Origin: a virus
DNA: 33,236 bases
Reading direction: 5' to 3' (one strand)
IMG/VR virus record: IMGVR_UViG_3300005613_004108
Coordinates: 1 to 33,236 of that record
A model generated the notes under the pieces. It had not been told where the DNA came from. It made no database searches and saw nothing but the letters and a program-made list of their open reading frames with translations. The position numbers and the translations under genes were made by a program. Of this stretch, positions 1,433 through 29,668 are shown in pieces (position 1 is the first letter of the stretch; each line of letters starts with the position of its first letter).

Positions 1433-3085
1433 TTATTGTTGATCGTATAAATTTAAAATATCTACAAAACCACCCATTTCTCCAATATGTTCTTTAACAT
1501 GTTTCATAATACCAGGATTTGACAAATCTGATTGAAGTTCTGAATTGCTTTGTATAATATCTGCCATCTGACTAGAAAATTCTGTATATTCATTACTATT
1601 AATAAGCATTGGTGGATCATATTTTCTTACATACATGACACATGAAGTTGCTAAGGCCAAGTCATCTCTACATCCAGTATCAGCTTCTACTTTTCCACTC
1701 GTTTTAGAAACAAGTCCAGTAAGTTCTAATGCCAATCTTTCTGATTTAACAATTTCTGGATATTGAGTAATATAAGAATATAAAGCATCAATCATTAATG
1801 GTCTTGTTTTTGTATTAGTAGATAATCCTGGTAGAACTGTTGTCTTACCTCGTTTTTCTTTATATATCATAAAAGAAAACTCACTATTATTGAGTTGCTC
1901 AACTACCTGGTTTCCATAAGAGTTTGATTCAACTACTATTGTACCAGGATATTGTGTTGCTAGAACTTGGACAACTTTAACAAAATCAAGAACCTTACAT
2001 TTTCCTTGATATTCACATACTTGCTCTAAGGTTTCATAATCCCAAACTGTCACTGCTGATCTATCTTCACCATGTTCTGGTGCAGTATCAACCCCCATTA
2101 TATAATGACGACCAGGTATTGGGTTAGCAAATCTCCAAACTTCACCATTAAATAGTTTTAATTTCTCAATAGGAGTAGTAACAGCATCCTGAACTTTCTC
2201 AACTGTATCTGGTTCAAAAAATGAACCTTCAGCAGGTAAGAATTTAAGTTCTAACTCCTGCGCAATTTTTCTTGGATCATTATCAAAAAGAGCACATTGA
2301 GTTTTATACCAATCTGGGTCATCAGCTAATTCAGGAATCATTTTCCAATGAATAACAAATGGTTCAAAAATATCATCTCTAGATACAGCTTTTTGGTATC
2401 TCTTAAAGTACCATTCTCCAATACCAATTGTTTTATTTGGAGTTGATAATACAACAGTTCCATAAGGAACGTTAGCTTTCTTAGCTTGCATTTGATTAGT
2501 TGATAATGCTGGTACCATACTTGTCCATGCTGTATCAATATAATGAACAAAGGCTGCTTCATCAATAACTAAAAATGTAATAGCTTTACCACGAAGAGTT
2601 TTGTCTGGAGCATTTGGATTAACAGGTGAAGCAAATACTTTACTACCATTTGTTAGAATAAATGATTGCTCTGTTCTTTTTGCAAAACCAAGACCCAAGG
2701 GACCTCTTGGAGGTTTCATCCAATCGGGAAGTTTTTCGATCATTCCTCTAATTGCTCTAGCAAAGTCAGTTGCTTCTTTTCCATCTTTAGAAATAATACC
2801 AATAACTGCATTATCGTAAAATATTGTTAACCAGGCAGAGTATGCTTGAATAATTGTAGATATTCCTATCTGTCGACTTTTTAAGACAAGGACATAATGT
2901 TTAAATTCAACTAGATCTATTAACTCAACTTGTTTTTTGTACGGTTTAAGCAGAACATCTTTTCCTGGAACTTCGATTAATATATAGGTTCGGCAAAAGT
3001 AGTCGAAATCACCTTTACATCTTAAATATTCAACTACAAATTCATCTGCTAATCCTTGTAGTCTTTTCTCATCTAACTTGGGCAT
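1433..3085 (-). CDS. terL: Terminase large subunit (TerL)
   Basis: This is the ATP-driven DNA packaging motor and headful/concatemer nuclease. The 550 residues have the usual two-domain TerL layout. The ATPase domain carries a deviant Walker A with its lysine shifted to the N-terminal side (K69-SRQIGIS, as in many T4-type terminases). Its Walker B is FLVIDEA (171-177), with the catalytic Glu at 176, and a coupling motif follows around STPNKT (214-219). The RNase H-like nuclease domain carries the three expected acidic positions: D333 in MGVDTAPE, E386 in IVVESNS and D475 in RDDLALA. AAAAGGAG precedes the ATG. No small terminase subunit is visible. The 229-base gap upstream makes TerL a likely start of its own transcript. 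Confidence 0.95.
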   Translation of the reverse strand: MPKLDEKRLQGLADEFVVEYLRCKGDFDYFCRTYILIEVPGKDVLLKPYKKQVELIDLVEFKHYVLVLKSRQIGISTIIQAYSAWLTIFYDNAVIGIISKDGKEATDFARAIRGMIEKLPDWMKPPRGPLGLGFAKRTEQSFILTNGSKVFASPVNPNAPDKTLRGKAITFLVIDEAAFVHYIDTAWTSMVPALSTNQMQAKKANVPYGTVVLSTPNKTIGIGEWYFKRYQKAVSRDDIFEPFVIHWKMIPELADDPDWYKTQCALFDNDPRKIAQELELKFLPAEGSFFEPDTVEKVQDAVTTPIEKLKLFNGEVWRFANPIPGRHYIMGVDTAPEHGEDRSAVTVWDYETLEQVCEYQGKCKVLDFVKVVQVLATQYPGTIVVESNSYGNQVVEQLNNSEFSFMIYKEKRGKTTVLPGLSTNTKTRPLMIDALYSYITQYPEIVKSERLALELTGLVSKTSGKVEADTGCRDDLALATSCVMYVRKYDPPMLINSNEYTEFSSQMADIIQSNSELQSDLSNPGIMKHVKEHIGEMGGFVDILNLYDQQ

Positions 3086-4592: not shown

Positions 4593-4634
4593 TTCATTAT
4601 CCTTTTTTATTTTTTGTTCCAAAAAAATAAGTAC

Positions 4635-9047: not shown

Positions 9048-9752
9048 TTACTCCAGTAATCGTTTTAAGTAATGATAATTTTTTCTTAACTTATCTTGAT
9101 ACTCTGACATATATTCTAATATAATATCTCCATGCCAATTATATCTATACTTCAAATCCCTTACAAATCCAACTAGATTTAATTCGCCTTTTGGTGAGTT
9201 AAATGGCATGTGACTACCAATTCCAGGTGCTCGATTTGATAAATGAATAACTGAAGTATATTTTAATAAGTATGGCATAATTTTATGATCAAACCAGATT
9301 TTCTCAGAATGGCTTGTATCAAAAGTCATTTTAAACTGATCCCCATACCTTAGACATGCATCAATAATTTGGAGTGGAGTTCGAAACTCTTTTTTCTTTC
9401 TATACTGAAAATTCTCAATACATAATTGTGCAGCCACCCCACTATTTTTATAAAGGTTAATAAAATTTTCAATTCCCTTATTTGGATGAATTACATACTT
9501 ATGACAATGAAACCTATATCTAAATAAAGATATTATATGAAGCATATCGTTGAAGTCTCTATGAAATAAATCCAAAGGTAAGTGAACAACTCTAACATCT
9601 ACTTTATTTCGTTCTAGTTGTTCAAAGATAAATTTTTTGTTGTTCTCAAATAATTCATATTTATATATTGGTAACTGAATGCTGGCTGGTATGTTTTCTA
9701 GTGCATATCTATTTTCTTCACCAAATCCACATGAAATTGATAAGTTTATCAT
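9048..9752 (-). CDS. Xylose-isomerase/AP-endonuclease-2-like TIM-barrel protein
   Basis: The protein has 234 residues and starts with ATG in an ATGA overlap with the folE2 stop. The strand order fits a sugar phosphate isomerase/epimerase (Xyl_iso/AP endonuclease family 2) barrel. It shows ISCGFG at strand 1, VRVVHLPLD (about 53-61), KYVIHPNKG (about 85-93), QLCIENFQ (strand carrying a metal-ligand-type Glu), MTFDTSHS (Asp and His ligands), SVIHLSNR (His ligand) and DIILEYM with the closing Glu near the C-terminus. This set of Glu, Asp, His and Glu at strand ends matches the divalent-metal site of the superfamily. The barrel is slightly short. Placement after FolE2 may mean a part in pterin or modified-base metabolism or in DNA repair; the substrate cannot be read from sequence. 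Confidence 0.7.
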   Translation of the reverse strand: MINLSISCGFGEENRYALENIPASIQLPIYKYELFENNKKFIFEQLERNKVDVRVVHLPLDLFHRDFNDMLHIISLFRYRFHCHKYVIHPNKGIENFINLYKNSGVAAQLCIENFQYRKKKEFRTPLQIIDACLRYGDQFKMTFDTSHSEKIWFDHKIMPYLLKYTSVIHLSNRAPGIGSHMPFNSPKGELNLVGFVRDLKYRYNWHGDIILEYMSEYQDKLRKNYHYLKRLLE

Positions 9753-10636
9753 AAGTATCGCCTTCCGTTAAAACCTCCCCTCATCCCTTTCCAGTTGACA
9801 GCAATTGCTTCTGATGTATGAATTGATTCTTGGTGAGAACATTTTACAATCCAATCATAAATATCTTCTCTATCATCCAAACTAGCAGAAATTAATCTAA
9901 TTGCATCTTCTACAAACATTGGGTTTTGAGCTGCTACATGAGCGATCTCTTGCTCATCGACTCTTTTTATTATGGGATAAGGGAGGGTTTTTATCTGTGA
10001 CTCCACAGTTTCAATTATATCTTCAAGCCATACATAATGAGATTCAATGCCTTCAACGAGAACATCTGCATATGATCTTTGATTATGAGGATATCCGCTT
10101 TTTCCATTTTTGGATAAATCCTGACATAGTTCAGCAGAGCAAGGACAATATGAAGCATACTGTATTATTACCCCTTGAAAGAACCTAAAATCTAATGTAT
10201 CAGGAACAGGTTCTATCAAACTTTCGTCATGAAGTAAGAATAACTGACCCTCAAATCTACATTTATAATATATTGGAAATTGATGTTTAGATTTTATTGA
10301 TTCTCGTTTAATTGGCATTCTAAATTCAAACTTCATAAAGCTTGCTGTGCTTCCAACATTTTCTATCAAATCTTCTAAGATTTGTTTTATTAATTTACTC
10401 TTTAATGGAAGATCTAGATATGGTTTTAAAGTTAATAATAATCTTGACATTGAGATTCCTTTTGTATCTTTATCTAAATTAGTTCTCATAGATACATTTG
10501 CTATAAGTTGATGAAATCCACCATATTTAGATTCCAATTTAAAAGGAACCTCAACGTTTTCAACTCCGACTTGTTTAATAGGGATTCCAATGTTTGGAGT
10601 AGAACATTGAATATCTGGTAAAGAATCTTGTTCCAT
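9749..10636 (-). CDS. folE2: GTP cyclohydrolase IB (FolE2)
   Basis: The enzyme converts GTP to 7,8-dihydroneopterin triphosphate, the entry step to folate and to 7-deazaguanines. At 295 residues it is of normal FolE2 length and carries the family landmarks: PDIQ near the start, GISMSRL (60-66), YCPCSAEL with the metal/catalytic Cys (C164), YPHNQR (182-187, His 184), IIKRVDE (222-228), NPMFVED (238-244, Glu 243) and ESIHTSEA (270-277). It is the FolE2 (type IB) family and not FolE, and type IB enzymes can use metals other than zinc. It overlaps the next gene by ATGA. QueD, which uses its product, is encoded at the right end of the window. The role in 7-deazaguanine DNA or tRNA modification is inferred. 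Confidence 0.95.
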   Translation of the reverse strand: MEQDSLPDIQCSTPNIGIPIKQVGVENVEVPFKLESKYGGFHQLIANVSMRTNLDKDTKGISMSRLLLTLKPYLDLPLKSKLIKQILEDLIENVGSTASFMKFEFRMPIKRESIKSKHQFPIYYKCRFEGQLFLLHDESLIEPVPDTLDFRFFQGVIIQYASYCPCSAELCQDLSKNGKSGYPHNQRSYADVLVEGIESHYVWLEDIIETVESQIKTLPYPIIKRVDEQEIAHVAAQNPMFVEDAIRLISASLDDREDIYDWIVKCSHQESIHTSEAIAVNWKGMRGGFNGRRYL

Positions 10637-10648
10637 AAATAATTTCTC

Positions 10649-10912
10649 CTATAAATCTTTATACTTTTTATGAAGTTCTTCTTCTATATGTTTTTCCCAT
10701 TTTCGTTGTTTTTCATCTACTAATAAATCTCCAGTATGGAGATCATGTTCCATATCATTTGAACAATGGAATACCAACCCCTCAAATTCCCATGCTTGAT
10801 TATTTGTATCCTCTTCTATTTCTCCATTGAGAATATAAAAGTTTCTATCAAGAGTTACAACTTGGAAACTAATGGGTGATCCACAAATTGGGCATTGTCT
10901 TTCTTTAATCAT
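10649..10912 (-). CDS. Small zinc-ribbon-like protein, 87 aa
   Basis: This 87-residue protein begins IKERQCPICGSP, a CPxCG knuckle at residues 7-10. A second possible ligand set is HCSNDMEHD about 40 residues later (His/Cys), consistent with one zinc site. Between them lies a strand-rich stretch (ISFQVVTLDRNFYIL) and an acidic linker; the tail is a Lys/Glu helix. The ATG overlaps the beta-subunit stop by one base (TAATG), so it is translated directly behind RNA polymerase beta and 12 bases before folE2. It could be a polymerase accessory factor or belong to the pterin genes. No family is recognised. Confidence 0.65.
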   Translation of the reverse strand: MIKERQCPICGSPISFQVVTLDRNFYILNGEIEEDTNNQAWEFEGLVFHCSNDMEHDLHTGDLLVDEKQRKWEKHIEEELHKKYKDL

Positions 10913-13900
10913 TATTGTTTAACTCCTATAACTGTAAGATATGAATTTAATAACTTAACTGATTCAGGAACTGTATTTAATTCATGTTTTTCTTCAACTA
11001 GATTATTTTCAATAAAGTTTCTTATATAATTATTCTTCAAATCAATACAGTCAGATTTTGTTGTCAGAAATTCAAATAAGTTACATGGAGCATCATGACC
11101 AATTAAACATGCTGTTTCCATTTCTCCGCATCTTTGTCCACCCTTATTTTTTCGTCCACCAAGTGGTTGAAGAGTTCTTCTGGCATAGGCTCCAATTCCT
11201 CTTGCAGAAAGTTTCTCTTCTGCAATATGGACCATTCTAAAGAAATATAGTGGTCCAACAGCAACTTTATTTACTAAATTCTCTTTTGATAATGGATCAT
11301 ATATTGTTTGCTTAAACTTAGCACCAGTATATTCCATTGCTTTTTCAACATCTTCTATTTTACATGACTCAAATGGAGCTTGAATTATTGTTAAACTTTG
11401 AATAAAATAAGAATCTATTTCATCTGGTAGTTGCTCTTCAAACTGTTTGTAATACCAACCATCAGATGTTTTATCAATTATACTTATATAATCTAGTAAG
11501 TATTTTTTTATTTCATCTTGACTTTTATTCTCATTTAACATTTGTAACATATTTTGTTTTAAAGCGTCAACTGACATAGATAAGTGCATTTCATATAATT
11601 GTCCAATATTCATTCTAGAAATAATACCGAGTGGATTTATACAAATATCAAGATGTCTGCCATCTTCAAGTTGCGGCATTTTTTCATGAGGAACAATTCT
11701 TGAAATTACTCCTTTATTACCATGCCGGTTTGCTATTTTATCACCAACTCTAATTTTTCTAAAGTGAACACCAAACATTTGAACATGAATCCCATTTATT
11801 CTTTCTCGTTTTTGTTTATACTTGCCAACAAATGAGAACTTATCTAAACTATGCTCTCTAATTATTTTCATTGCTTGATCAGTTGGTAATAAGTTTTTTA
11901 TAACTGTTTGTAGAACTTTTTCTTCAACTTGCTGATCTTGTAATCGTTTTTCAATCCATTCACTATATATAGGAATTTCCTCATTCCAGGTATTACCATA
12001 TAAATTAACTTCTGAAATAATAAAGTTTTTTCTAGCTACTAAAGTGATTGGCTCTATAAATGGTGAGTAGAGCTCATCTGAATTTAGTTTATTAATTATT
12101 GCATATGGTTCACCTGCTTTAATCGTTTGTAGTTCATCTGGTAAAGGTTTATAGTCATCACCCTTTTCAAGTGATACTAGTACTTTATCTGGAGTTAAGT
12201 TAAATGATAAGTCTTTATAATGGACAGATGTTAATGTATCTTCATTTGCTAAACGATCTGAAATAATAATACCATCTTCATAATTATTACCATAATAAAT
12301 CATTACTCCAGTTAAGAGATTTTTTCCTATATTAATTCTTCCATTATTACAAAAATTACTTTCTGCAAGAATATCACCAGCTTTAAATTTATCTCCCATC
12401 TTAACATAGATATTCATAAAGTCAAGATGTTCAACATAGATTTTTCTATAAGATATATCAAAAATATCTACTTCGTCGTCAACATACTGAGTAATAATAT
12501 ATTTTTTATCAATGTAAATAACTAACCCATCTTTCTTTGCTCGTTTTACAAATTGGGTATGATCAGTATACAAACCTTCGCAACCAGAACTTATCAATGG
12601 AGTATCAAAATCCTTTAACATAATTGCTTGTCTCATTTGTGATGACGCCATTTGTAGTCTAGTTTGATCGTCATGCTTTAAGAAAGGAGTCATAGATACT
12701 GGTGTTGAAATTGGTTGTTTATCACAAATTTCATTTGTGAATTTTAGGTTTTCATCCAGTTTAACATTTGGAACCAAATTTTGTAATACGCCACAGTTAT
12801 CACGGTCAGGAGTATCTACTGGGCAAATTCTTCCAAACATTGTTGGACATATATCTCGTAGATGTTTTGGAATATTTTCTCTTTTAAATCCTCCTGGTCC
12901 TAACAGACTAATTCTTGATAATTTTGTAAGTTCTTCGATTGGATTAATTGAAAAATCAAATTGAACAATATCAGACACATTACAATCTGAAAGAATTTGT
13001 GTAGAATTAATATTAAATTTTGGTTGACGAGCAGTTCTATTTGAGAAACATAGATCAAATATTATCTTTGATATTTTTCCCAATATCACATACTCAAAAC
13101 ATCGTACTCTTTTATTTGTAAAAAGAGTGTCGTCAATATCTTCGTATTTTAATATATCAATTAGTTCATCTATTACTGATTCTGTTTTTAAGAATTTGGC
13201 TGTGATAAGATCTACTTTACTAATTAAGTCTAATGCATATAATATATCTTCTCCTTTAGATTTCGCATTATATCTAGAATATGTCCTTCCGATTTCTAGA
13301 ATGAAATCATCTTGAGTATACCCTCTAGACGAATCGTAATATTCTTTTAAATCGGTTCTTAATATTTCATATAAATTTGGAGTTACTTCATCAATCTCAC
13401 CATCAAGATTAAACTTTTGAAACGCTTCATCTATTCCATAATATGCCATAAGTATTAATCCAAATGGAATTTTCTTTCCTAAGAAACTTATGTTAATACG
13501 AGGAACTTCTTTTTCTTTAAAAACCATGATAGTCGCTACATTAGTTCTCAACTTAATGTTTTCGCCCCTTGTTACAAGAGGAATATCAAAAAGTTGAAAT
13601 AAAGGAATTTTCTTTCTTCCATTAATATATATGTAGTTTTTATCAACTAACTTGGGAATGAAAAGACTTAGGTCAATATTAGCACTACCCTTTTGTAGTT
13701 TTATTGATAAAGTTTGTTTTAATGTTTTTGATAATTCTCCAGAAGAAAATTTTGAATCTTTAAGACTTACATCATTTATCGTAAAACCAATTTCTTCAAC
13801 TGGTTTAACAATATCTCGAACCATTGGTAAAATTTGTTCATAATCTTTTTCTCTTATTGTAAAGATATTATTATCTTCATTTTGAATTTTAAATGTGGGA

Positions 13901-13914
13901 TTAACTATGTTCAA
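10912..13914 (-). CDS. rpoB: RNA polymerase beta subunit, phage-encoded, bacterial type
   Basis: This is a compact beta subunit (1000 residues; bacterial ones are about 1150-1340). It starts at a TTG at 13914 with AAAGGAGG 9 bases upstream. Landmarks in order: fork and rifampicin-pocket region 318-342 (QFDFSINPIEELTKLSRISL), GRICPVDTPDRDNCG (361-375), SSQMRQAIML (424-433), NNYEDGIIISDRL (543-555), GDKIANRHGNKGVISR (724-739) with the catalytic-site lysines, NPLGIISRMNIGQ (760-772), and the C-terminal LQPLGGRKNKGGQRCGEMET clamp segment. It forms half of the active centre with beta'. It is not split in two as in the phiKZ/PBS1 type. Losses are in the lobes and lineage inserts. Alpha, omega and sigma genes are not in the window. 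Confidence 0.95.
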   Translation of the reverse strand: MNIVNPTFKIQNEDNNIFTIREKDYEQILPMVRDIVKPVEEIGFTINDVSLKDSKFSSGELSKTLKQTLSIKLQKGSANIDLSLFIPKLVDKNYIYINGRKKIPLFQLFDIPLVTRGENIKLRTNVATIMVFKEKEVPRINISFLGKKIPFGLILMAYYGIDEAFQKFNLDGEIDEVTPNLYEILRTDLKEYYDSSRGYTQDDFILEIGRTYSRYNAKSKGEDILYALDLISKVDLITAKFLKTESVIDELIDILKYEDIDDTLFTNKRVRCFEYVILGKISKIIFDLCFSNRTARQPKFNINSTQILSDCNVSDIVQFDFSINPIEELTKLSRISLLGPGGFKRENIPKHLRDICPTMFGRICPVDTPDRDNCGVLQNLVPNVKLDENLKFTNEICDKQPISTPVSMTPFLKHDDQTRLQMASSQMRQAIMLKDFDTPLISSGCEGLYTDHTQFVKRAKKDGLVIYIDKKYIITQYVDDEVDIFDISYRKIYVEHLDFMNIYVKMGDKFKAGDILAESNFCNNGRINIGKNLLTGVMIYYGNNYEDGIIISDRLANEDTLTSVHYKDLSFNLTPDKVLVSLEKGDDYKPLPDELQTIKAGEPYAIINKLNSDELYSPFIEPITLVARKNFIISEVNLYGNTWNEEIPIYSEWIEKRLQDQQVEEKVLQTVIKNLLPTDQAMKIIREHSLDKFSFVGKYKQKRERINGIHVQMFGVHFRKIRVGDKIANRHGNKGVISRIVPHEKMPQLEDGRHLDICINPLGIISRMNIGQLYEMHLSMSVDALKQNMLQMLNENKSQDEIKKYLLDYISIIDKTSDGWYYKQFEEQLPDEIDSYFIQSLTIIQAPFESCKIEDVEKAMEYTGAKFKQTIYDPLSKENLVNKVAVGPLYFFRMVHIAEEKLSARGIGAYARRTLQPLGGRKNKGGQRCGEMETACLIGHDAPCNLFEFLTTKSDCIDLKNNYIRNFIENNLVEEKHELNTVPESVKLLNSYLTVIGVKQ

Positions 13915-14107
13915 TGGTTTCGCCTCCTTTAAAATTAGAATTATATTTCTGTAAAGCTTTTAGTAGGTCGTCATCCTCAATATAATAAGGATCTTGATTT
14001 AATCGTAAAGCATTCATTATTAATTGAGTTAATCGAAGATCTGGACATTTTTCCCAGATCTCCTTAATTAACTCTAAAATTGGTGCTATTCTTTCTGGAT
14101 CTCTCAT
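13901..14107 (-). CDS. Small conserved-type protein between beta' and beta, 68 aa
   Basis: This helical 68-residue protein begins MRDPERIAPILELIKEIW and continues with PDLRLTQLIMNAL and a closing YYIEDDDLLKAL. I recall similar small MRDPxRI...W...PDLRLxQLI...EDD proteins in many bacteria and phages with no established function. It overlaps rpoC by ATGA and rpoB by 14 bases, so all three are translated in series. Its position between the two large subunits suggests a polymerase-associated part, but it does not look like omega (no MARxT or K/R-rich omega core). The PDLRL pattern is seen; the polymerase link is inferred from position only. Confidence 0.7.
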   Translation of the reverse strand: MRDPERIAPILELIKEIWEKCPDLRLTQLIMNALRLNQDPYYIEDDDLLKALQKYNSNFKGGETIEHS

Positions 14108-16809
14108 ACTATTTTTTCTCCCTTTAAAATCTTATCCATAACTCCAGAATATCTACCTTCATATAAAATACCCTGTAAAATTGCCCGTTTTGGATTTGAA
14201 AAAGCCATAGCAAGAATCCAGCTTTCTTGATTTGGAACACTCTGGACACTAAAATAAGATGGTTCTACTTTATCTCTATTTTCTAGAAGTCTCCATTTTT
14301 TATAATTTTTCCACATCAGTTGAGCAACAACACATTCAAAATGGACATGATGTATATCTTTATCATATACATCAAATAATGATTCAACTATATCTGTATA
14401 TGTTTTTCCTTTAAATTTATGTAATAGTTCTGCAACTGAGGCAAGATCTCCAATAATATCTTTTTGTTTCATCGCTTCGTTATTATCATCAGATCCTTGA
14501 ATTACAGCTGAACCAGAAGTATGAAATGTTCGTAAAACTAATTGAGTACCTCTTTCACCAAGGGTTTGAGCAGCTATAATACCTACAAAACGACTATTTA
14601 ATTTTTTATATAAATCCCCATAACATGTCTTACAAATCTTTGGTGATTTACATAAAATTGGACTTCTAATAAATATAGTTTTTCCAATAATGTCTTTATA
14701 GTTCTCTTTAGTAATTTTTTCTAATTGATTATTGACTTCTTGGTATCTATTTATAAGCATTTTTGCTTTTCTTTCATTTTTAACATGAACTTCTAAAAGA
14801 TCTTTTGTACCACAATCATCTAGATCTAAATCAATTTGTAAATTGGCACAAGTAAAGATTAGTTTTCTAGATAGATAACCGCTGGTACCAGTATTTAGTG
14901 CAACATCTAAAAGTCCTTTTCTACAACCATATGTTGAATAAAAGAACTCTTCTTGATTCAATCCTTCAAGTAATGAATTTTTAATTGGTAAAGGTAGAAT
15001 TTCCCCATCAAAATTTGATATAAAGCCTCTGGTTAAAACAAGCTGTTTAACTTGATCCCAACTACCTCGTGCTCCTGATGCAATCATGTGCGCGTAATAA
15101 AAATTATCTCTCATTGTTTCATTTACGGATTTATCAGAAACAGCTAATAATTGATCTCTAAGATTTTCACTTGTATAAAGCTTTTCTTTTAATTCTGCGG
15201 ATCCGTGCATTTTACAATCTTTAAGAGACATTGTACAACCAAATAAGGTTGCATATTTAAACCCAATTTTCTTTATGTCATCTAATACTTTTATGGTGAT
15301 TTCCTTATTATATTTGTCTTTTATATCATTTAAGATCTGGAGTAATCTATCCTTATTTACTTCTCCTTCAATGATTGGATAATCTTCTGGTAAATATCTG
15401 TTAAACTCTTCTTGACCTTTTGTAAGGGATTCATTTTGACTTTCTTCTTTAATCAATTGGTTTGAAAAGTTTGGTGACGTTAAATAGTAAATACCTAAAA
15501 CAACATCTTGACTTGGTGTCGTGGTTAACTCTTCATTTGCTGGACTGTTTAAATTAGATGAAATTAAAACTTTATTAATAATTTCTTCTCTTGCTTCATC
15601 TGTTACTGGAATATAAACTGCCATTTGATCCCCATCAAAATCAGCATTAAATGGAGGGCAAGCCAAAGGATGAATTTTTATCACCTGATCCCTTGTGACT
15701 TTTACTTTAAAACCTAGCATTCCAAGTTTATGTAAAGATGGTTGTCTATTTAATATACAGTATTTATCTTTAGTAACATATTTACATAATTTTAATAAAA
15801 CAAGTGATTGATTATCAATACATTCATCAACAAAATCAATGGCTTTATTAAGAAGTTTAAATTTACCAATTTCAATTATTCTTTTGGCAATAGGTAATTT
15901 AAATATTTCAAGAACCATTAAATATGGTAGCTTACATTCATCTAAAGCTAATGTTGGATCTGGTGTAATAACAGCTCTTCCAGAAAAATCAATTCGTTTC
16001 CCAAGAATATTTCCTCTTATCAATCCTTCTTTTTTAGACATTTTTTCAAGTATTCTAGTATACAGTTCGTTAACATCTTTTTGAAGTTGTTTAAAATAAG
16101 AATAGTATAGCGCTTTATCTCTTTGAATATTGATAATAGTATCTTTCATAATTTCTTTTTTAGTAAGTATTTGAACATAATACCTATTAATTTTATCCAT
16201 CAATTGTTTATTTTGTCCAGAACTTTTAGATGTTGGCCTCAATTCTGGGGGTAACACTATTATTTTATCTATTAATAAATTATCAATATTATCAAGTACA
16301 ATTTTCCATTCTGTAAGGCCGTCCTCAACTGCATCAGCAGCATTAGTTTCTACTAATACTTTTATTGCATCACTTCGTTCCCAAGTTTGAACTCCTTTTG
16401 GTATTTGATCTATATTAGTTTCAACAACAAACTCTTGATCACTAATATATAAAACGCTTTTATCATTTTTCATAAGATTATCTAGAGCTTTCTTTAAACC
16501 TTTTCCGCCAAGATCAACTAGTAAATCATAAAATAATGGATTTACAACTGGTATAGGTAGCGTTATTTTTGCAAATCGTTTTCGTCTTTCATCACTATTG
16601 ACAATATCTACTCCACATTCTTTACATTTACTACCTTCTTTTGAAACTCCATAATAAGTACCACATTGGCAGGTATAATTTCGTACTGGGCCGAATATCT
16701 GTTCAGAGAATAATCCATTAGGATGAAACTTTTTTTTACCAAATGTTTTTAGAGACGTCACTTCGTCTAATTCTTCACAAAAATTTTCATAATTAAGTAT
16801 TTTTGGCAT
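14104..16809 (-). CDS. rpoC: RNA polymerase beta' subunit, phage-encoded, bacterial type
   Basis: A single-chain compact beta' (901 residues; bacterial ones are about 1150-1400) with a GGAGAG site before the ATG. In order: N-terminal zinc knuckle C47/C49/C62/C65 followed by DERRKRFAKI; IRGNILGKRIDFSGRAVI (264-281); NRQPSLHKLGMLGF (354-367); the catalytic NADFDGD at 388-394 with all three Asp; the bridge-helix/trigger-loop region with FYSTYGCRKGLLDVALNTG...SGYLSRKL; the second zinc site (DCGT and CKSPKICKTCYG); and GIIAAQTLGERGTQL...RTFHTSG. The C-terminal jaw is much reduced. All chemistry-bearing modules are present, so it should be active with beta. It is preceded by the Ubl-conjugation cassette on the same strand with a 5-base gap. 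Confidence 0.96.
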   Translation of the reverse strand: MPKILNYENFCEELDEVTSLKTFGKKKFHPNGLFSEQIFGPVRNYTCQCGTYYGVSKEGSKCKECGVDIVNSDERRKRFAKITLPIPVVNPLFYDLLVDLGGKGLKKALDNLMKNDKSVLYISDQEFVVETNIDQIPKGVQTWERSDAIKVLVETNAADAVEDGLTEWKIVLDNIDNLLIDKIIVLPPELRPTSKSSGQNKQLMDKINRYYVQILTKKEIMKDTIINIQRDKALYYSYFKQLQKDVNELYTRILEKMSKKEGLIRGNILGKRIDFSGRAVITPDPTLALDECKLPYLMVLEIFKLPIAKRIIEIGKFKLLNKAIDFVDECIDNQSLVLLKLCKYVTKDKYCILNRQPSLHKLGMLGFKVKVTRDQVIKIHPLACPPFNADFDGDQMAVYIPVTDEAREEIINKVLISSNLNSPANEELTTTPSQDVVLGIYYLTSPNFSNQLIKEESQNESLTKGQEEFNRYLPEDYPIIEGEVNKDRLLQILNDIKDKYNKEITIKVLDDIKKIGFKYATLFGCTMSLKDCKMHGSAELKEKLYTSENLRDQLLAVSDKSVNETMRDNFYYAHMIASGARGSWDQVKQLVLTRGFISNFDGEILPLPIKNSLLEGLNQEEFFYSTYGCRKGLLDVALNTGTSGYLSRKLIFTCANLQIDLDLDDCGTKDLLEVHVKNERKAKMLINRYQEVNNQLEKITKENYKDIIGKTIFIRSPILCKSPKICKTCYGDLYKKLNSRFVGIIAAQTLGERGTQLVLRTFHTSGSAVIQGSDDNNEAMKQKDIIGDLASVAELLHKFKGKTYTDIVESLFDVYDKDIHHVHFECVVAQLMWKNYKKWRLLENRDKVEPSYFSVQSVPNQESWILAMAFSNPKRAILQGILYEGRYSGVMDKILKGEKIV

Positions 16810-17253: not shown

Positions 17254-17595
17254 TTATAACACCTCTTGTTCTTCATATTCTATCTCATCCCACGGAGTAA
17301 AATAACAATCATTTAAGTTAAAACAACATAACATAGTTTGTATGATAACTTTTATATTATCAGAAATCTTTTCTTCTCGTAATTTATGTGGAATACAGAA
17401 GTTCCCATTTTTTGGGTTTGCATTTGGATGTGGAACATTAATTATAATAAGATCAATATTATCGTTTACTGTCTTTATAATATAATCTTTAATATAAAAT
17501 TTTTTTGGTAATTTTGTAATTGTATATAACGTATTTTTAAAAACCAATTTGTTTGGGATGAAAAGTCCTCTTATTAAATGATCTCTTATTTCCAT
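17254..17595 (-). CDS. Short E2 (UBC-like) conjugating protein candidate
   Basis: This 113-residue protein contains HPN at 56-58 and GNFCI with Cys 67, preceded by a strand IDLIIINV (47-54) and followed by helical segments. In eukaryotic E2 enzymes the HPN motif is followed by the catalytic Cys in a GxIC[LI] context 8 residues after the Asn; here it is 9. The strand-HPN-loop-Cys arrangement therefore matches the E2 active site. The protein is shorter than a canonical E2 core (about 150), as are several prokaryotic E2-like proteins. Its ATG overlaps the stop of the E1-like gene (TAATG; GGAG upstream), giving a coupled E1-E2 pair. It would carry the Ubl as a thioester from Cys 67. The motif is seen; the fold is inferred. 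Confidence 0.6.
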   Translation of the reverse strand: MEIRDHLIRGLFIPNKLVFKNTLYTITKLPKKFYIKDYIIKTVNDNIDLIIINVPHPNANPKNGNFCIPHKLREEKISDNIKVIIQTMLCCFNLNDCYFTPWDEIEYEEQEVL

Positions 17596-18455
17596 TAAGC
17601 AGCTCCTGTTTCTGGAATGAGTTCAACAAAAACGTCAGATCCATCTTGAAAAACAGATATTACGAAATTATTAAATTCACATTGTAAATTTATAACAGAT
17701 GCTAAATTGATAATAAGGTCTTTGCTTGAGGTTAAAGATTTTTTTGGTATCATTCGTTCTGCAACTGGGAATACTCTGCTCCCAAGAAATACTTGTATAT
17801 CTTTTCTTTTATTCATATCCAAAATTGGAACAATCTTATCTGGTAAATTAATAAACTTCTCACTTTCAATAACATTATCATAAACAATATCATACATAGA
17901 TTTATCTATATGCTTGACATAATCTAACTCATATTTTTGAACGGCTTGATTATTGATCAACGATTTAATTGTATTGCTATGAACTAGCATTGAAACAGTT
18001 GATGCAGCATATCTTAGATCATCTTTTGTTAATTCAATCAGATATTTTCCAACTTGTGGAATTTTATAATTGACATTTTTTCGGCAGTCAACAATTAAAT
18101 ATCTAGATGATATGTAGAGTCTGGCGTCAATCTTATTTTGACGATCATATGTATAATCGCGGCAATCTAAAATTAAATCTGTTTCTGGGATTTTTGTTTC
18201 TCCCTCTATATATTTAGTTTGAATTCCTAAAATTTCTGTTTCATGATTTTTTTCACTAATTATATCTGCTAAAGCTTCAACTTTTGGTATACCTATATCA
18301 ATTTGTCTATAGATAGAGTTCTTTAAATTTCTTTTTTCAACTGTATCGTGGTCTACAATCACTAATTTCTCAATTCCCTCAAGTGTGGAGAGAGCATCAA
18401 CAACGAAACCTCCAAGGGTTCCTAATCCAATTACTACGATACTTTTATATATCAC
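17595..18455 (-). CDS. Second E1/ThiF/MoeB-like adenylating protein, divergent
   Basis: The protein has 286 residues and starts at a GTG at 18455 with AAAGGAG 9 bases upstream. The N-terminal Rossmann core is a ThiF-type adenylation domain: GLGTLGG (10-16), acidic VDHD (34-37), N43 in KRNLKNS, R50 in YRQ, and K58 in GIPKVEA, all at E1-like spacing. LILDCRD (95-100) matches the strand that carries the ATP-site Asp in E1 enzymes. The C-terminal half (about 130-286) is divergent, ending in a strand-rich DGSDVFVELIPETGAA. No Cys lies where E1 proteins form the thioester, so it may only adenylate, act as a regulatory E1 half, or hand over directly to the E2-like protein encoded next. Two E1-like genes in one cassette is unusual. 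Confidence 0.75.
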   Translation of the reverse strand: MIYKSIVVIGLGTLGGFVVDALSTLEGIEKLVIVDHDTVEKRNLKNSIYRQIDIGIPKVEALADIISEKNHETEILGIQTKYIEGETKIPETDLILDCRDYTYDRQNKIDARLYISSRYLIVDCRKNVNYKIPQVGKYLIELTKDDLRYAASTVSMLVHSNTIKSLINNQAVQKYELDYVKHIDKSMYDIVYDNVIESEKFINLPDKIVPILDMNKRKDIQVFLGSRVFPVAERMIPKKSLTSSKDLIINLASVINLQCEFNNFVISVFQDGSDVFVELIPETGAA

Positions 18456-18483
18456 GTTCTGTTTCTCCTTTCATATGAATATT

Positions 18484-18510
18484 GGTGAGGGGCTAAAATG
18501 CCCCTCAACC
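18484..18510 (-). terminator. Strong GC hairpin after the 183-aa gene
   Basis: GAGGGGC (18487-18493) pairs with GCCCCTC (18500-18506) around a 6-base loop, with GGT/ACC flanks extending it after a mismatch. It lies between the stop of the 183-residue gene and the E1-like start. There is no T-tract on the minus strand, so it may be an RNA-stability or processing hairpin, or a terminator for a non-host polymerase. Confidence 0.55.
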
Positions 18511-18515
18511 ATTTA

Positions 18516-19067
18516 TTACTCCGCCTTCTTTTTTAGACCTTCTTCAAGAAGTTCTGCTTCAAATTTTCCTGTTGGTACTGGTCTAAAATGTGATTTATAT
18601 TTATATAATTTATTTGCTATCTTCACTGGATAACTAAGAGGAAGAGCAAAAGAATATTCTATTATTTCATGTGTCTTTAAACGACTAGAAACTTCGATAG
18701 GCGGGTCTATCGTTTTTAGTTCTTCTTTAACAATTGTATCGAAGTATTCTGCATCTTTAGCATTTTTTACTTTCATTGCTCTACGAATAAATTGATCATT
18801 TCTTGATGAACTATTTATTTTCCCGAAATTTTTTCTTCGTACTAAAGCTTTCATTGCTCTTCCAAAAGCTTTGTTTTTTCCATCTGAAATGCGAAATATA
18901 TCTAGAAGAGAACAAATAGAAACCCCTCGTGCTTCAATTCTATTTTTAGTAGTATTAACAAGAACGCATGTTGTATATGCATTATTTATCAAAGGGGTTT
19001 TTTCATAATAAAATGATATCTTATCAACACCATTTTTAGCAAGGACTTCCTGAACCGATTCAAGCAT
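18516..19067 (-). CDS. Unknown protein inside the Ubl cassette, 183 aa
   Basis: The start at 19067 (MLESVQEVLAK) is preferred because AAAGGATC lies 6 bases upstream; an ATG at 19082 has none and abuts a hairpin. The centre carries RIEARGVSICSLLDIF and FGRAMKALVRRKN, a pattern (ARGxSxCSxxDxF...GRAxxAL) I recall from phage and plasmid hypotheticals without known function. It is basic with an alternating strand start and a helical end (LEEGLKKKAE). It lies between Ubl and the second E1-like gene, bracketed by hairpins, so it may be expressed at a different level from them. It could be a cassette-specific adaptor or substrate; the sequence does not decide. Confidence 0.65.
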   Translation of the reverse strand: MLESVQEVLAKNGVDKISFYYEKTPLINNAYTTCVLVNTTKNRIEARGVSICSLLDIFRISDGKNKAFGRAMKALVRRKNFGKINSSSRNDQFIRRAMKVKNAKDAEYFDTIVKEELKTIDPPIEVSSRLKTHEIIEYSFALPLSYPVKIANKLYKYKSHFRPVPTGKFEAELLEEGLKKKAE

Positions 19068-19082
19068 TTTAGATCCTTTCAT

Positions 19083-19120
19083 TAATATATTAGGACCCCA
19101 GAAGGGGTCCCGATATATTA
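19083..19120 (-). terminator. Long composite hairpin downstream of the Ubl gene
   Basis: An inner GGACCCC AGAA GGGGTCC stem (19093-19110) is extended by TAATATAT/ATATATTA (19083-19090 and 19113-19120) beyond a two-base internal mismatch, 15 base pairs in all. It starts 5 bases after the Ubl stop codon. There is no T-tract on the minus strand, but the AT arm may serve. It also sits just before the 183-residue gene, so it could reduce read-through or set its expression. Confidence 0.65.
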
Positions 19121-19125
19121 AAACG

Positions 19126-19584
19126 TTAACAACCTTTCTTTCCTGCTGGTTTTAGGAACTCAAGATTGTCACCCTCTTTTAGAATATAGTCCCCAGGTAC
19201 TTCTTTTCCATTAACCAATCCGGTTGATAGACGATCAACATTAAGAACTTCTCTGATGAAATCACCCACTTCTTTAACACTCTTTCCAGTTACGGGAAAG
19301 TTGCCTGATGAAGCACCACATGAAACATGAATTGTGGTTGTGGTTCTTGAACCAAATGGAGCAGATGGTTTTGTCAAAGTACTTTGACCAGTAAATTCTA
19401 CTCCGGTTACACCCTTGCTTGGCGCAATCGTGGCACCACCGGAATATGTTTCCAATATTGAATTAATAACAACATCTTTTGTCTTTTTGCTAACTCCGAC
19501 AATTCCAAGTTCATCAATACACATCCGCTTTAAGTCCTTGGATGTTTTGGCTTCTAGTTCTTCACGTGTAAAACTTCTTCCCAT
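19126..19584 (-). CDS. Ubiquitin-like modifier with N-terminal SAP-like domain
   Basis: The protein has 152 residues with AAAGGAG before the ATG. Residues 6-47 (TREELEAKTSKDLKRMC..., GIVGVSKKTKDVVINSILE) look like a SAP/HeH-type helix-turn-helix that binds nucleic acid. A Gly/Ser/Thr/Pro linker (about 49-80) leads to a C-terminal beta-grasp domain of the MoaD/ThiS/ubiquitin type. It reads TTIHVSC strand, PVTG strand, KSVKEVGDFIREVL helix, STGLVNGKEV strands, and DYILKEGDNLEFLKP as the closing L-x-x-GD-x-x-x-F signature. It ends AGKKGC. Removal of the terminal Cys would expose a Gly, as JAMM proteases do for other prokaryotic Ubls. PRTRC-C proteins, as I recall, end in TKG. It is the likely modifier for the E1, E2-like and JAMM proteins around it. 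Confidence 0.75.
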   Translation of the reverse strand: MGRSFTREELEAKTSKDLKRMCIDELGIVGVSKKTKDVVINSILETYSGGATIAPSKGVTGVEFTGQSTLTKPSAPFGSRTTTTIHVSCGASSGNFPVTGKSVKEVGDFIREVLNVDRLSTGLVNGKEVPGDYILKEGDNLEFLKPAGKKGC

Positions 19585-19589
19585 GTTTT

Positions 19590-20276
19590 TTAATTCTCCT
19601 TTACAATTCTTGTTTTCGCATCTGTTGTCATACTCAAAATATCAAAGTATATTTCAGAGCGATCGTACTTTCCTTTTATAACAGCGTTATAAAAGGCCCA
19701 ACACATAATTGTTGCAACCCCTAAGTTTGTAAAATACAATTGAGGGTCAGAGTGTGATAATTCGTCGCAAGACATTTCATCAGGTAACTTATCTTCGGGA
19801 TTGGAAATTTCAGGATGATATGCACATAGGTCAGGAGTTAAATCTCTCCCTTCTCTTCTGACATAAATTTGAACATTACCATCTGTAAATTCATTCCCAC
19901 CAGAAATGAGGGTAACATCTTGTAGTTGCTTACAGTAATTAGATACTATCATTCTGGTTTTATGATTATCTACGCATAGAAAAACAATATTGCCTTCTTT
20001 AATAACTTCAGAAACATTATCTGGGTTTATGAAGGCGTCATATACATCTAAACCAAGCTGACTAAATTTTAACTCCAGTTCTGTTGCTTTAATATCAGCT
20101 TTATTACCTATTCTATTAAATTCTTGTCTCTCATAATTTTTCTGCTCATATTCGTCTCCATCTACAAGGAGAATTTCAGCAGTTAGATCATTTGAATAAT
20201 TTATAAATCTACATAATCTTTCAATGAGTATAGAACCTACACCACCAAGTCCAATGATAGTTATATTTAAATCCAT
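19590..20276 (-). CDS. E1-like ThiF-family activating enzyme (PRTRC-ThiF type)
   Basis: The protein has 228 residues from the ATG at 20276, with AAGGAG 9 bases upstream inside the end of the JAMM gene; an earlier ATG at 20297 lacks a site. All E1 landmarks are present: GLGGVGS (9-15), acidic VDGD (38-41), NYERQ (47-51, the N...RQ motif), K59 in GNKADIKA, and FLCVDN with D103. A Cys at 170 in the MSCDE context fits the thioester Cys. The order closely follows ThiF-like proteins of the PRTRC cassette. It would adenylate the C-terminal Gly of the Ubl encoded 5 bases downstream and take it as a thioester. The Ubl-JAMM-E1 adjacency supports a dedicated pathway, not sulfur carrier chemistry for thiamine or molybdopterin. 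Confidence 0.85.
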   Translation of the reverse strand: MDLNITIIGLGGVGSILIERLCRFINYSNDLTAEILLVDGDEYEQKNYERQEFNRIGNKADIKATELELKFSQLGLDVYDAFINPDNVSEVIKEGNIVFLCVDNHKTRMIVSNYCKQLQDVTLISGGNEFTDGNVQIYVRREGRDLTPDLCAYHPEISNPEDKLPDEMSCDELSHSDPQLYFTNLGVATIMCWAFYNAVIKGKYDRSEIYFDILSMTTDAKTRIVKEN

Positions 20277-20280
20277 TACA

Positions 20281-24304: not shown

Positions 24305-24306
24305 TC

Positions 24307-26064: not shown

Positions 26065-26065
26065 A

Positions 26066-26454: not shown

Positions 26455-28650
26455 CTAATGTAGAGTTAATATTTGATCTGCTTCAAGTTGATCTTCATGC
26501 CTATGAGAAATTAAGTAAATAGATTTTCCAAATTTCAAATTTGTTAAAACTTTTGATACATAACCAATATTTTCTTCATCTAAAGCATCAAAAATTTCAT
26601 CAAACAATAAGATATTAAATTTAACATCTTGAATCGTTGACTGAAGATCTCCAAGTGTTAAAATAGTAGCAATATCAATAACTCTAGTTTGCCCTCCAGA
26701 TAATTGAATCCGGGCATTCGCTCTTGTATAAGTATCAACAACATTAACTGAAATTTTATCTCTAAACTCTCCACCTTTTGTTGGTGCTAAAGTGTCAAAT
26801 GAAACTATATATCGACCATTTGTTAATTTATCCAAATATTCTGATACCTTCACATTCATAAACGGAATTGCTTCATCAATTAACATTGAAGGAATTCCTG
26901 CTGAAGAAAAACCAATCTTCCAAAACTCGAGAATTTCCATTCGAGATGCAACTATGTTTAGTTGTTTAGATGACATCTCAATTTCAATTTCTAGATCTCT
27001 CTTTTTCTTTTTGTAGGAATTTAACTGAGTTTCGTCATATTCTTCATTTTCTTTGTTTTGAATTTGCTTTTGAATATTTGTCATTTGACTTTCAATGTTT
27101 ATAATAGTTTTACCAATTTCGTTAATGTTTCTTTGTATATTTTCTTGCTCCGACATTTTTTGAGTTAACTCGACCTTTTTATTTTCAAGGTCTTTTTTCT
27201 TAGTAACTTTATCAGTATTTAATTTATCAATTTCTTTTTCCCCTAATTCTTCTACTTTATCATATGTGTCGTCTAATCTGGCAGAAACATATCCTAATTC
27301 ATCTGTCTCTTTATGTTGTAAATCTATTTTTTTAGTAGATACATTTTCGAGTTTAAGATTTATTTCTTTAGACTCTTTTGCTAGATTACTATTTAAATCT
27401 TGTACTTGCTCAGATATGGAAATTATATTTTTCATTCCAATATCAAGTTCAACCCCATACTCATTAGTTTTATTCGTTAACAATTGAATAGTTTCTTTAT
27501 TTAAATCTTGTTCACAGAGTGGGCAAGATGAAACTTCAGCATCAATAACTTTTTCTTTGATCTCATCTATTCTATTTTTTAATCCGTTATTTTTAGCTTT
27601 AATAGTTTCAATTTTTAGTTCTAAATGATGACGTTCTTCCTGTGCTTCCTGCGTCAATTTATTTAAAGTATCTTTTAAAGCAGAACTTTCATCTGCTAGT
27701 TTATCAAATTCTACTTTAAACTTATCTTTAATTTCATTCTCTGCTTTATTGGCGCTACTATTTAGCTCCATAGTTTTGATTTCTTTTCTTTTTAATATTG
27801 AATCTTTATCATTTTTAAATTGATTTTCAATGTTGTTCAAGTCATTGTCAACATTGCTTAACTCTGTAATTATTTCTTCAATATTTATTTCTTTACTTTG
27901 TATATTCTCAAGTTCTTCTTCCCATTTATTTACTAATCTCTCATTCTCTTCAAAAGATTTTTTCAATTCTAAAACAGAAACCTTTATATCGTCTTCAAAT
28001 TTTTTCTTAGCTGCTTGTAGTATTTTTATTTGATTGATAGCATCTTCTTGAAGTGCTTTATCTATTGCTATTTTCTTTTCAATTTCTTCTAAATTCTTTT
28101 TAACTTCTTTTAATGTATTATCAATCTTTTTATAAAAATCTTGGTATTGTTGTAAATCAAGAAGCCCTCTAAAAATCTCTTTTTTATCAGAATCTACTAG
28201 ATCTGTAAAGAAGTTTTTTACTTTTTGTCCAAACATAAGAGTATTACTAAATGATTTTCTAGGACAAATAAGTTTTTCAACAACGGGGACAACTTCCTGA
28301 TGACCTTTCATATATGGTTTATCTTCATTATTTTTAAAAAGGTGAACCGTATTTCCTAATCTTGGATATTTATGATATCTATCTACTCGATAAGGAACAT
28401 CATTACTTTTAAATTTTGCCCATGTATGACAACCTTTACCAATTCTATTATTAACTACATCATCACCTCTAGCTCCTTTACTTGTAATACCAAATAAAGT
28501 AAAAGGAAGTGCATCAATGGCCATAGTTTTCCCTATTCCATTTGGTCCTGTAATTAGAACTAAAGAATCATTATTAAATGGTAATATCATTGGATCAATA
28601 TATGGTCCAAAATTTTCCATTCCAATTTCTTGAAATTCTACTTCTCTCAT
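26455..28650 (-). CDS. sbcC: SbcC/Rad50-type recombination ATPase
   Basis: The start at 28650 (MREVEFQEIGMENFGPY) has AGGAG 7 bases upstream and leaves 10 bases after sbcD; an earlier in-frame ATG at 28695 overlaps that gene. It has 731 residues, compact like T4 gp46. In order: N-terminal ATPase half with Walker A GPNGIGKT (35-42); a long coiled coil interrupted by the zinc hook SSCPLCEQDL; the return coil; then LSGGQTRV signature, Walker B ILLFDEIFDAL and H-loop SHRHE. With SbcD it forms a nuclease/ATPase that opens blocked DNA ends and supports recombination-dependent replication. All motifs are intact. Confidence 0.95.
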   Translation of the reverse strand: MREVEFQEIGMENFGPYIDPMILPFNNDSLVLITGPNGIGKTMAIDALPFTLFGITSKGARGDDVVNNRIGKGCHTWAKFKSNDVPYRVDRYHKYPRLGNTVHLFKNNEDKPYMKGHQEVVPVVEKLICPRKSFSNTLMFGQKVKNFFTDLVDSDKKEIFRGLLDLQQYQDFYKKIDNTLKEVKKNLEEIEKKIAIDKALQEDAINQIKILQAAKKKFEDDIKVSVLELKKSFEENERLVNKWEEELENIQSKEINIEEIITELSNVDNDLNNIENQFKNDKDSILKRKEIKTMELNSSANKAENEIKDKFKVEFDKLADESSALKDTLNKLTQEAQEERHHLELKIETIKAKNNGLKNRIDEIKEKVIDAEVSSCPLCEQDLNKETIQLLTNKTNEYGVELDIGMKNIISISEQVQDLNSNLAKESKEINLKLENVSTKKIDLQHKETDELGYVSARLDDTYDKVEELGEKEIDKLNTDKVTKKKDLENKKVELTQKMSEQENIQRNINEIGKTIINIESQMTNIQKQIQNKENEEYDETQLNSYKKKKRDLEIEIEMSSKQLNIVASRMEILEFWKIGFSSAGIPSMLIDEAIPFMNVKVSEYLDKLTNGRYIVSFDTLAPTKGGEFRDKISVNVVDTYTRANARIQLSGGQTRVIDIATILTLGDLQSTIQDVKFNILLFDEIFDALDEENIGYVSKVLTNLKFGKSIYLISHRHEDQLEADQILTLH

Positions 28651-28660
28651 GGCAGGTCTC

Positions 28661-29668
28661 CTAACTTTGTATAGCTTTGAATGCCTCTTTAGCATAAGCT
28701 TCTTTTTTGTCTTCTGGAATTTCTTTTATCTCAAGATATCTAAAAATTTTATCTTCTTGAGACATTGAACTTGTAATTCCTCGATCTGTGATATCTTTTT
28801 CTGTTTTGTCAACTACATGAAAATTGTTTTTAATATCAACCAAATCAACTTTTTCCCTCATGAGAAATTTAACATGATGACCATTTTCTTTTGCTTCTTG
28901 GGCGGCTTTAATTGCGTCATCCTTGTTATCATTTGTAAGTTCAATTTCAATATGTTTTTTATATTGAGTAAGAGGAATACTATCAACTTGAAGCGTATCT
29001 GTATCAACAACTAAGAATCTTTTTTCATCCCCTTTTTCTCCCCAGTCTAATTGAATCAATGATCCAACATAATACAGATTAATATCGTCTCTTATTATTT
29101 CTTGTGGTTTATGATAATGACCAAGAAGAACTAAATCATATTGACCAATTAGATCACTTAATTTAATATCAGAAACAATACTTATTCCAGAATTTAAAAC
29201 TCCTTCATTTAACCCAAAGTGTGATATAAGAATTTTACTTTTATTATTTTTAACTTGATTTCTAAGATCGTGTGAATATGGAATACACATGATATTATCA
29301 TCACCAAATGGAGTTTGACTTATCCATTTAACATTTGGACAATTACTTATTGGTCTTAATGCTGATATTGCACCTGCTCCTTTTCCAGATAAATCGTGAT
29401 TTCCATCTAAAACCCAAAATTCTAAATCTTTATAGTGCTCGAAAAAATCTAACATTATTTCTTGAGCAATTGAATATATCATTGATTTGGTATGATATAT
29501 ATCCCCGCCTATTATCACATGAGCAATGTCATTTTCATAACAATAATTTCCAACTTGATATAATGATCTTTTTATACTATGTAACCGGTCAGGCAAATTA
29601 CTTTCATCTTCAATCTTATCTTGACTATACCGAGATAGATGGAGGTCTGCTATAAATGCAAAGTTCAT
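28661..29668 (-). CDS. sbcD: SbcD/Mre11-type nuclease
   Basis: The protein has 335 residues with the complete metallophosphoesterase set: ADLHL with D8 and H10, IIGGDIYH (GD), DGNHDL (GNHD), KILISHFG (H) and LGHYHKPQ (GHxH). It matches phage T4 gp47 and bacterial SbcD in length and order. The C-terminal about 100 residues are a capping domain rich in Asp/Lys. It is encoded directly upstream of sbcC as usual and overlaps the preceding NSSS-tag gene by 4 bases. It provides Mn-dependent exo/endonuclease activity for recombination and repair. Confidence 0.93.
   Translation of the reverse strand: MNFAFIADLHLSRYSQDKIEDESNLPDRLHSIKRSLYQVGNYCYENDIAHVIIGGDIYHTKSMIYSIAQEIMLDFFEHYKDLEFWVLDGNHDLSGKGAGAISALRPISNCPNVKWISQTPFGDDNIMCIPYSHDLRNQVKNNKSKILISHFGLNEGVLNSGISIVSDIKLSDLIGQYDLVLLGHYHKPQEIIRDDINLYYVGSLIQLDWGEKGDEKRFLVVDTDTLQVDSIPLTQYKKHIEIELTNDNKDDAIKAAQEAKENGHHVKFLMREKVDLVDIKNNFHVVDKTEKDITDRGITSSMSQEDKIFRYLEIKEIPEDKKEAYAKEAFKAIQS

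Follow-up and report, generated by a model that had tools for sequence, protein, structure and literature searches.

The first-pass annotation of the DNA analyzed here (the window, a 33,236-base IMG/VR virus record classed as linear) singled out one beta and one beta′ subunit of RNA polymerase (RNAP), each encoded whole, on the premise that phage multisubunit polymerases are split into several chains. Where does such an enzyme come from, and how is it related to the split enzymes of giant phages? The premise itself was too narrow. It holds for phages of the phiKZ/AR9 type, but unsplit phage beta and beta′ have already been published for the multi-subunit-RNAP-encoding Caudovirales (mReC; Weinheimer & Aylward 2020, PMC7481178), and we found unsplit beta′ in Cobetia phage Carin-5, Rhizobium phage RHph_Y65, and Vibrio phage Va2, with beta also unsplit in Carin-5. 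These last enzymes are deeper branches outside the group discussed below.

The window and its two-chain polymerase

We assign the window to a phage because it encodes a terminase large subunit, SbcC/SbcD-like genes, and a helicase with phage matches (Table 1); no major capsid gene was found in the fragment in the scans run. Both genes of the polymerase, hereafter RNAP-A, are single open frames, unlike those of non-virion RNAPs (nvRNAPs), in which beta and beta′ are split into two chains each. The beta chain matched the Pfam domains Rpb2_6 (E = 2e-54), Rpb2_3 (4e-14), and Rpb2_7 (4e-11), and beta′ matched Rpb1_2 (8e-34) and Rpb1_5 (3e-24), with weaker matches to Rpb1_3, Rpb1_1, and Rpb1_4. The NADFDGD motif, both zinc sites, the bridge helix, and the trigger loop are present in beta′, and RHGNKG was also found in RNAP-A. 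In 10 sampled members mapped to E. coli numbering, all eight zinc cysteines are invariant, and catalytic beta′ D460/462/464, trigger-loop R933/H936, and beta K1065/K1073/H1237/R678/R1106 are kept. Open frames, domain matches, and mapping thus bear out the initial description of nearly complete single chains with canonical motifs.

The accompanying suggestion that lobes and jaw had been lost was half right. In E. coli numbering, beta′ lacks segments 521-560, 952-1127, 1150-1224, and 1361-1407, of which we take the second to be SI3, the third the jaw, and the fourth the C-terminal tail near omega; loss of the jaw therefore stands, together with losses of SI3 and the tail. The beta segments 232-338, 978-1004, 577-618, and 633-654 are absent, the first two presumably lying within the lineage-specific inserts SI1 and SI2. 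These losses fall mainly in beta inserts, and the lobe is mostly retained. Two rifampicin-contact positions are altered in the sampled members (D516 to F, T, or S; H526 mostly to K), and we therefore predict rifampicin resistance.

Table 1. Features of the window, with positions on the whole stretch
Feature	Position	Strand	Evidence or remark
Terminase large subunit	1433..3085	-	phrog_2, E 4.6e-37; late gene
Late-type promoter-like motif, TTTTA-GAACA-AAAATA-AAA	3096..3114	-	23 nt before terminase start codon
Second late-type promoter-like motif, TTTTTGGAACAAAAAATAAAA	4605..4624	-	before gene listed 3315-4622
FolE2	9749-10636	-	
87-aa CxxC protein	10649..10912	-	directly after beta, same gene run; 29/91 loci
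RNAP-A beta, unsplit, 1000 aa, TTG start	10912..13914	-	Pfam Rpb2_3/6/7; homologs in 91/91 RNAP-A loci
68-aa ORF between beta′ and beta	13901..14107	-	4-14-base overlap with both; similar ORF in 23/91 loci
RNAP-A beta′, unsplit, 901 aa	14104..16809	-	Pfam Rpb1_1-5; alignment; E. coli-numbered mapping
Ubiquitin-like gene cluster adjoining RNAP-A	17254-24310	-	each gene found in 70-82/91 relatives
QueE-like radical SAM gene	25021-26082	-	
SbcC/SbcD-like recombination nuclease genes	26455..29668 (26455-28695, 28661-29668)	-	phrog_77, E 7e-78; phrog_100, E 1e-44
Five small ORFs with a common N-terminus	26066-26446, 29665-30123, 30120-30542, 30548-30895, 32300-32719	-	
QueD	32722-33150	-	

The two small proteins encoded beside the beta gene gave weak matches below cut-off, the 68-aa ORF to DUF1040 and the CxxC protein to Zn_ribbon. 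Several other parts of the window merit a brief description. The ubiquitin-like cluster comprises two ThiF/E1-like genes, a ThiS-like protein with a GKKGC end, a JAB-like protease, and a Prok-E2_D-like protein of 858 aa, and it resembles PRTRC-type plasmid systems. FolE2, QueD, and the radical SAM gene hint at a possible 7-deazaguanine DNA modification pathway. Near the radical SAM gene, the five small ORFs have the N-terminal sequence M(K)xKxDFxTNSSSTxFxI in common, diverge beyond it, and are perhaps precursors of modified peptides.

Relatives of the window and a second whole polymerase

Querying IMG/VR with beta′ returned 180 related stretches, the best 80 of which are 39-76% identical, on contigs of up to 312 kb. 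Searches of cultured phages with tblastn gave distant matches only, all below 60% identity, and among the matches listed from species genomes of bacteria and archaea, bacterial identities to the window's enzyme did not exceed 31%. A Gp23-type major capsid protein (PF07068) is encoded by all nine of the largest relatives (≥185 kb), and one relative had 21 matches to phiR1-37 at 1e-4, including capsid, terminase, and portal-like proteins (some of these names are putative). Based on shared traits, the window's phage almost certainly belongs to the published mReC lineage: it comes from a tailed-phage contig with both beta and beta′, its relatives are uncultured IMG/VR tailed phages with Gp23-type capsids, and its polymerase falls in a clade distinct from cellular enzymes, the cellular reference here being bacteria only. 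The main text of the mReC paper (PMC7481178) makes no mention of two copies, of phiKZ, or of splitting; the orthology, sigma-like subunit, and promoters described below are new here.

The initial annotation had weighed a distinct lineage against later capture from a bacterium. Had the window's phage recently acquired a bacterial rpoB-rpoC operon, canonical motifs, unsplit chains, and adjacent beta′ and beta genes would be expected. Against such a capture, bacteria were separated from all phage enzymes at a support of 100 in the beta, beta′, and concatenated trees, and the window's enzyme was not nested in any bacterial group; it adjoins the split phage clade without falling inside it. The identity to listed bacterial matches is low, about 180 viral relatives exist (the best 80 at up to 76% identity), and the gene order is beta′ before beta, without alpha. 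Based on the trees and the bacterial identities, we rejected bacterial capture, which we consider extremely improbable, and the distinct lineage is the alternative that survived the phylogeny.

A search for Rpb2_6 revealed two betas in 24 of the 28 records of at least 80 kb, one of ∼1000-1070 aa (RNAP-A) and one of 1356-1400 aa (RNAP-B), apart from one RNAP-B copy of 914 aa that is cut by the contig end. The two polymerases lie 26-49 kb apart, and the four single-beta records (G003, G007, G030, and G034) end before the expected place of RNAP-B. A single-sequence query with the RNAP-B beta′, which adjoins its beta and measures ∼1004 aa, found only two loci in viral contigs, so RNAP-B loci were collected by coordinates. 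In 7 of 20 loci (L237, L240, L243, L245, L247, L248, and L255) this beta′ is split into pieces of ∼780 and 225 aa, and phiKZ-type phages have the same C-terminal piece as a small virion protein of its own (PMC7598289). Near the split site, L242 carries an insert of ∼390 aa, and L252 has a further break near residue 375. From the orientation of the window relative to its relatives, RNAP-B of the window's own phage is predicted to lie 10-35 kb past the right end of the window, together with the sigma-like gene described below. On the 312-kb contig behind locus L094 (G011), RNAP-A and RNAP-B lie near opposite contig ends, and this genome is therefore probably circularly permuted.

We searched the proteomes of phiR1-37 and phiKZ with profile HMMs of the two enzymes. 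The nv chains of phiR1-37 scored higher with the A than with the B profiles (143.6 versus 119, 142.8 versus 71.1, and 121.7 versus 80.6 bits). Its virion (v) chains favored B over A, with 205.5 bits versus no match for beta (g099, 1393 aa long and listed in its annotation as a structural RNAP beta), 138.9 versus 44.5 for the N-terminal part of beta′, and 54.1 versus no match for the 232-aa C-terminal piece; one v chain was tied (80.8 versus 81.6). The phiKZ proteins followed the same trend.

Phylogenetic trees, from which phiKZ was finally omitted because of its very long branches, pointed the same way. SH-aLRT support was 96 for (A,nv) and 92 for (B,v) in the beta tree, 89 for (B,v) in the beta′ tree, which gave no firm placement of A relative to nv, and 99 for (B,v) in the concatenated tree. 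We scored 105 backbones of six groups on the concatenated data under LG+C20 PMSF with subtrees fixed; the cellular sample consisted of six bacteria, and some intron-bearing split sequences were incomplete. The best backbone, at AU 0.947, was (((A,nv),(B,v)),other phages). Three others had AU of at least 0.05, all with (B,v), so that other placements of nv survive. Origins on either side of bacteria were rejected on the concatenated data (AU 0.015 and 0.002) but survived on beta alone (AU 0.20 and 0.10), which gave the same best tree (AU 0.971). On beta′ alone the best concatenated tree had AU 0.42 and alternatives survived. The long branches leading to the split enzymes count against this pairing. 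Based on profile scores and trees, we propose that RNAP-A is the counterpart of the nvRNAP of AR9, phiR1-37, and phiKZ and RNAP-B that of their vRNAP.

An alternative is that two independent duplications took place, making A and B private to the mReC lineage and nv and v private to the split lineage. The corresponding tree, ((A,B),(nv,v)), survives on beta′ alone (AU 0.10), and nv and v came together in a preliminary starting tree, as they would under long-branch attraction. That topology was nevertheless rejected in two of three data sets, the concatenated one (dlnL 28.8, AU 1e-4) and beta alone (AU 4e-4). The HMM preferences and the beta lengths (1364 versus 1397 aa) pair B with v, and the late and early motifs of the relatives match those of AR9 (see below). 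We therefore regard two duplications as unlikely.

The counterparts share more than descent. RNAP-A falls with the nvRNAPs of AR9, PBS1, phiR1-37, and phiKZ in a common sequence clade for beta (PMC7598289, PMC9209446), although AR9-type nvRNAP has at least four chains and RNAP-A has two whole ones. The vRNAPs of AR9, phiR1-37, and phiKZ have at least five chains, whereas RNAP-B, presumably packaged as they are, has a whole beta and a beta′ that is whole or in two pieces; the C-terminal fission of beta′ in some members is alike. Alpha (PF01193) was found in none of the 28 relatives of at least 80 kb and had no match in the window's own record, an absence common to AR9-type nvRNAP.

A sigma-like protein and two classes of promoter-like motifs

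When 112 conserved families from one relative were compared with a profile built from AR9 gp226 and its homologs, a single family matched (probability 58.8; next best, 2.3), and hhalign of this family against gp226 with more members gave a probability of 71.5 (P = 3.6e-5). Plain sequence search for gp226 found no match, and the protein was detected only by profile-profile comparison. It is 480 aa long, and in most relatives its gene lies directly upstream of RNAP-B beta′. The AF2 model (pLDDT 72.7, pTM 0.48) had as its best PDB matches the sigma-like chain of AR9 nvRNAP, 7s01_A and 7um0_A (Foldseek E 1e-4 and 3.5e-4), with Z of 17.9-18.1 over ∼400 residues and a large rmsd because the domains are differently placed. 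Next came chain B of phiKZ nvRNAP (Z 8.3-9.1) and then bacterial sigma factors (sigma2) over residues 97-244 (Z ∼5-6). The bacterial similarity alone falls in the chance range for helical proteins; the AR9 match lies well above it. Judged from the predicted structure, the protein has the fold of AR9 gp226, and a gp226/gp68-type sigma-like subunit, a trait of nvRNAPs, is present in the relatives; in the window's phage its gene is expected outside the window.

Other searches for initiation factors yielded little. Sigma70 region 2 was not found in 11 records, and region 4 matched in 4 of 28, two of them above cut-off: G011, with 22 short, weak, scattered matches that are perhaps homing endonucleases, and G018, with one 81-aa ORF. 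Among the same 112 families, a profile of phiKZ gp54 (chimallin, the marker of the nucleus-forming Chimalliviridae) had no match, although this profile, made from a single sequence, is a weak probe.

Counting 8-mers without a prior revealed that AGAACAAA is enriched ahead of genes in five relatives. In an alignment of 86 instances on GAACA, the bases before the motif are T-rich and A occupies positions 10-12 after the initial A of AACA, and sense outnumbered antisense occurrences in each genome (24:5, 7:1, 16:5, 5:1, and 22:6). The late promoter of AR9 is A(-11)ACA-N6-T[A/G](+1) (PMC7598289). By sequence, the motif of the relatives, GAACA-N6-AAA, has the AR9 spacing, whereas its start-site dinucleotide is mostly AA or TA rather than T-A/G; the AR9 promoters, for their part, require uracil. 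Two such motifs occur in the window (Table 1), and the gene listed after the second likely begins at an ATG near 4592. Across the window as a whole, neither GAACAAA nor TATATATA is overrepresented; the signal lies in their location ahead of genes in the larger relatives.

The other motif, CTATATATATTAAT, is similar to sequences annotated as early promoters in AR9 (ATATATATTATTA). It forms a partial palindrome and has no strand bias in whole-genome counts, and in three genomes the late-type and early-type motifs have no upstream region in common. In the RNAP-B loci, two pairs of which represent identical or almost identical contigs, a late motif stands ∼0.5 kb before beta′ in 16 of the 18 loci whose upstream sequence spans 1 kb or more, and an early motif stands upstream of the sigma-like gene in 11 of 16. 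Another early motif follows beta within 1.5 kb, mostly at ∼900 nt, in 16 of 21 loci (versus 3 antisense), with a late motif near it in 15 of 21. No motif was found inside the RNAP-B genes in 162 kb. In each of three genomes inspected, a gene block running toward RNAP-A has at its head the early site that follows RNAP-B. Such placement is what would be needed for an early enzyme to make the late one and for the late enzyme to make the early one for packaging.

The position of the sigma-like gene, adjoining RNAP-B and not RNAP-A, counts against assigning its product to RNAP-A as a late-promoter factor. The protein could instead confer specificity on RNAP-B, or on both enzymes, in which case the promoter classes may be wrongly assigned; its gene lies next to that of beta′-B in most relatives, and no second sigma-like family was found for the other enzyme. 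Its structural matches are nvRNAP subunits, however, an early-type motif precedes its own gene in most of the loci counted, and AR9 nvRNAP has the AACA motif as its own. We consider service to RNAP-B or to both enzymes doubtful and tentatively retain the assignment to RNAP-A.

A proposed early-to-late program and its history

Taken together, these observations make it highly probable, in our judgment, that RNAP-A and RNAP-B are the nv and v counterparts in an early-to-late circuit and that they arose by one duplication followed by fission in other phages. RNAP-B would be packaged in the virion and injected, and would then transcribe from CTATATATATTAAT early promoters, among them the one at the head of the gene block containing RNAP-A and the one that precedes the sigma-like gene. 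Late promoters of the form GAACA-N6-AAA, such as those before terminase, capsid, and RNAP-B, would next be read by RNAP-A together with the sigma-like subunit; alpha would not be needed, as in AR9. We infer the packaging of RNAP-B and all of the biochemistry. The pair would have come from one duplication in an ancestral phage, and the phiKZ/AR9 lineage would later have broken both enzymes into pieces.

This order of events bears on two published statements. According to a 2026 review, it is not known if jumbo phages gained their virion and non-virion polymerases by duplication or by two acquisitions (PMC13282480), and a 2021 analysis argued that the split enzymes are pre-LUCA relics that were never made by splitting (PMC7824862). 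Whole orthologs of both enzymes make the questions of duplication versus acquisition and of relic versus fission directly testable, and the present data favor one duplication, then fission. If the split state of a primordial multisubunit enzyme were ancestral, as argued from unusual domain inserts in the split phage enzymes (Iyer et al. 2021, PMC7824862), the mReC polymerases would have become whole by fusion, twice. Both paralog clades, other phages, and all of the sampled bacteria have unsplit forms, so that several fusions, at bacterial-like junctions, would be needed, and fission of beta′ is seen within the RNAP-B clade itself. We consider ancestral splitting very unlikely. The data suggest that the split enzymes of giant phages descend from whole ones and that the pair existed before the splitting. 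We think it likely, with somewhat more reserve than for the circuit, that an ancestral tailed phage had two whole beta/beta′ enzymes, a sigma-like factor, and AT-rich early and AACA late promoters, that mReC phages preserve this state, and that the phiKZ/AR9 enzymes are later fission products and not primordial relics.

We found no description of unsplit v or nv orthologs in the open-licence literature, and the identity of an unsplit phage RNAP as half of a whole nv/v pair with a sigma-like factor and promoters appears to be new. Whole enzymes of two chains should be easier to express than those of four or five, and the fact that promoter elements and a sigma-like factor can be recognized at such distance suggests that the early-to-late transcription program is old and stable.

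Some further phage polymerases deserve mention. In Carin-5, an annotated RNA polymerase sigma factor gene (L147:3353-3943) directly precedes the unsplit beta′ and beta. Several GenBank records labeled as phages, including OR846821, OR844998, OR846602, and OR850989, contain bacterial-looking rpoB/rpoC that probably represent host contamination. Vibrio phage D69 and Salmonella phage Arash encode a protein of 1525-1545 aa (L257:4879-9516 and L263:4897-9474) that matches both beta and beta′ profiles and might, questionably, be beta fused to the N-terminal part of beta′; in Arash this gene lies near a portal gene.
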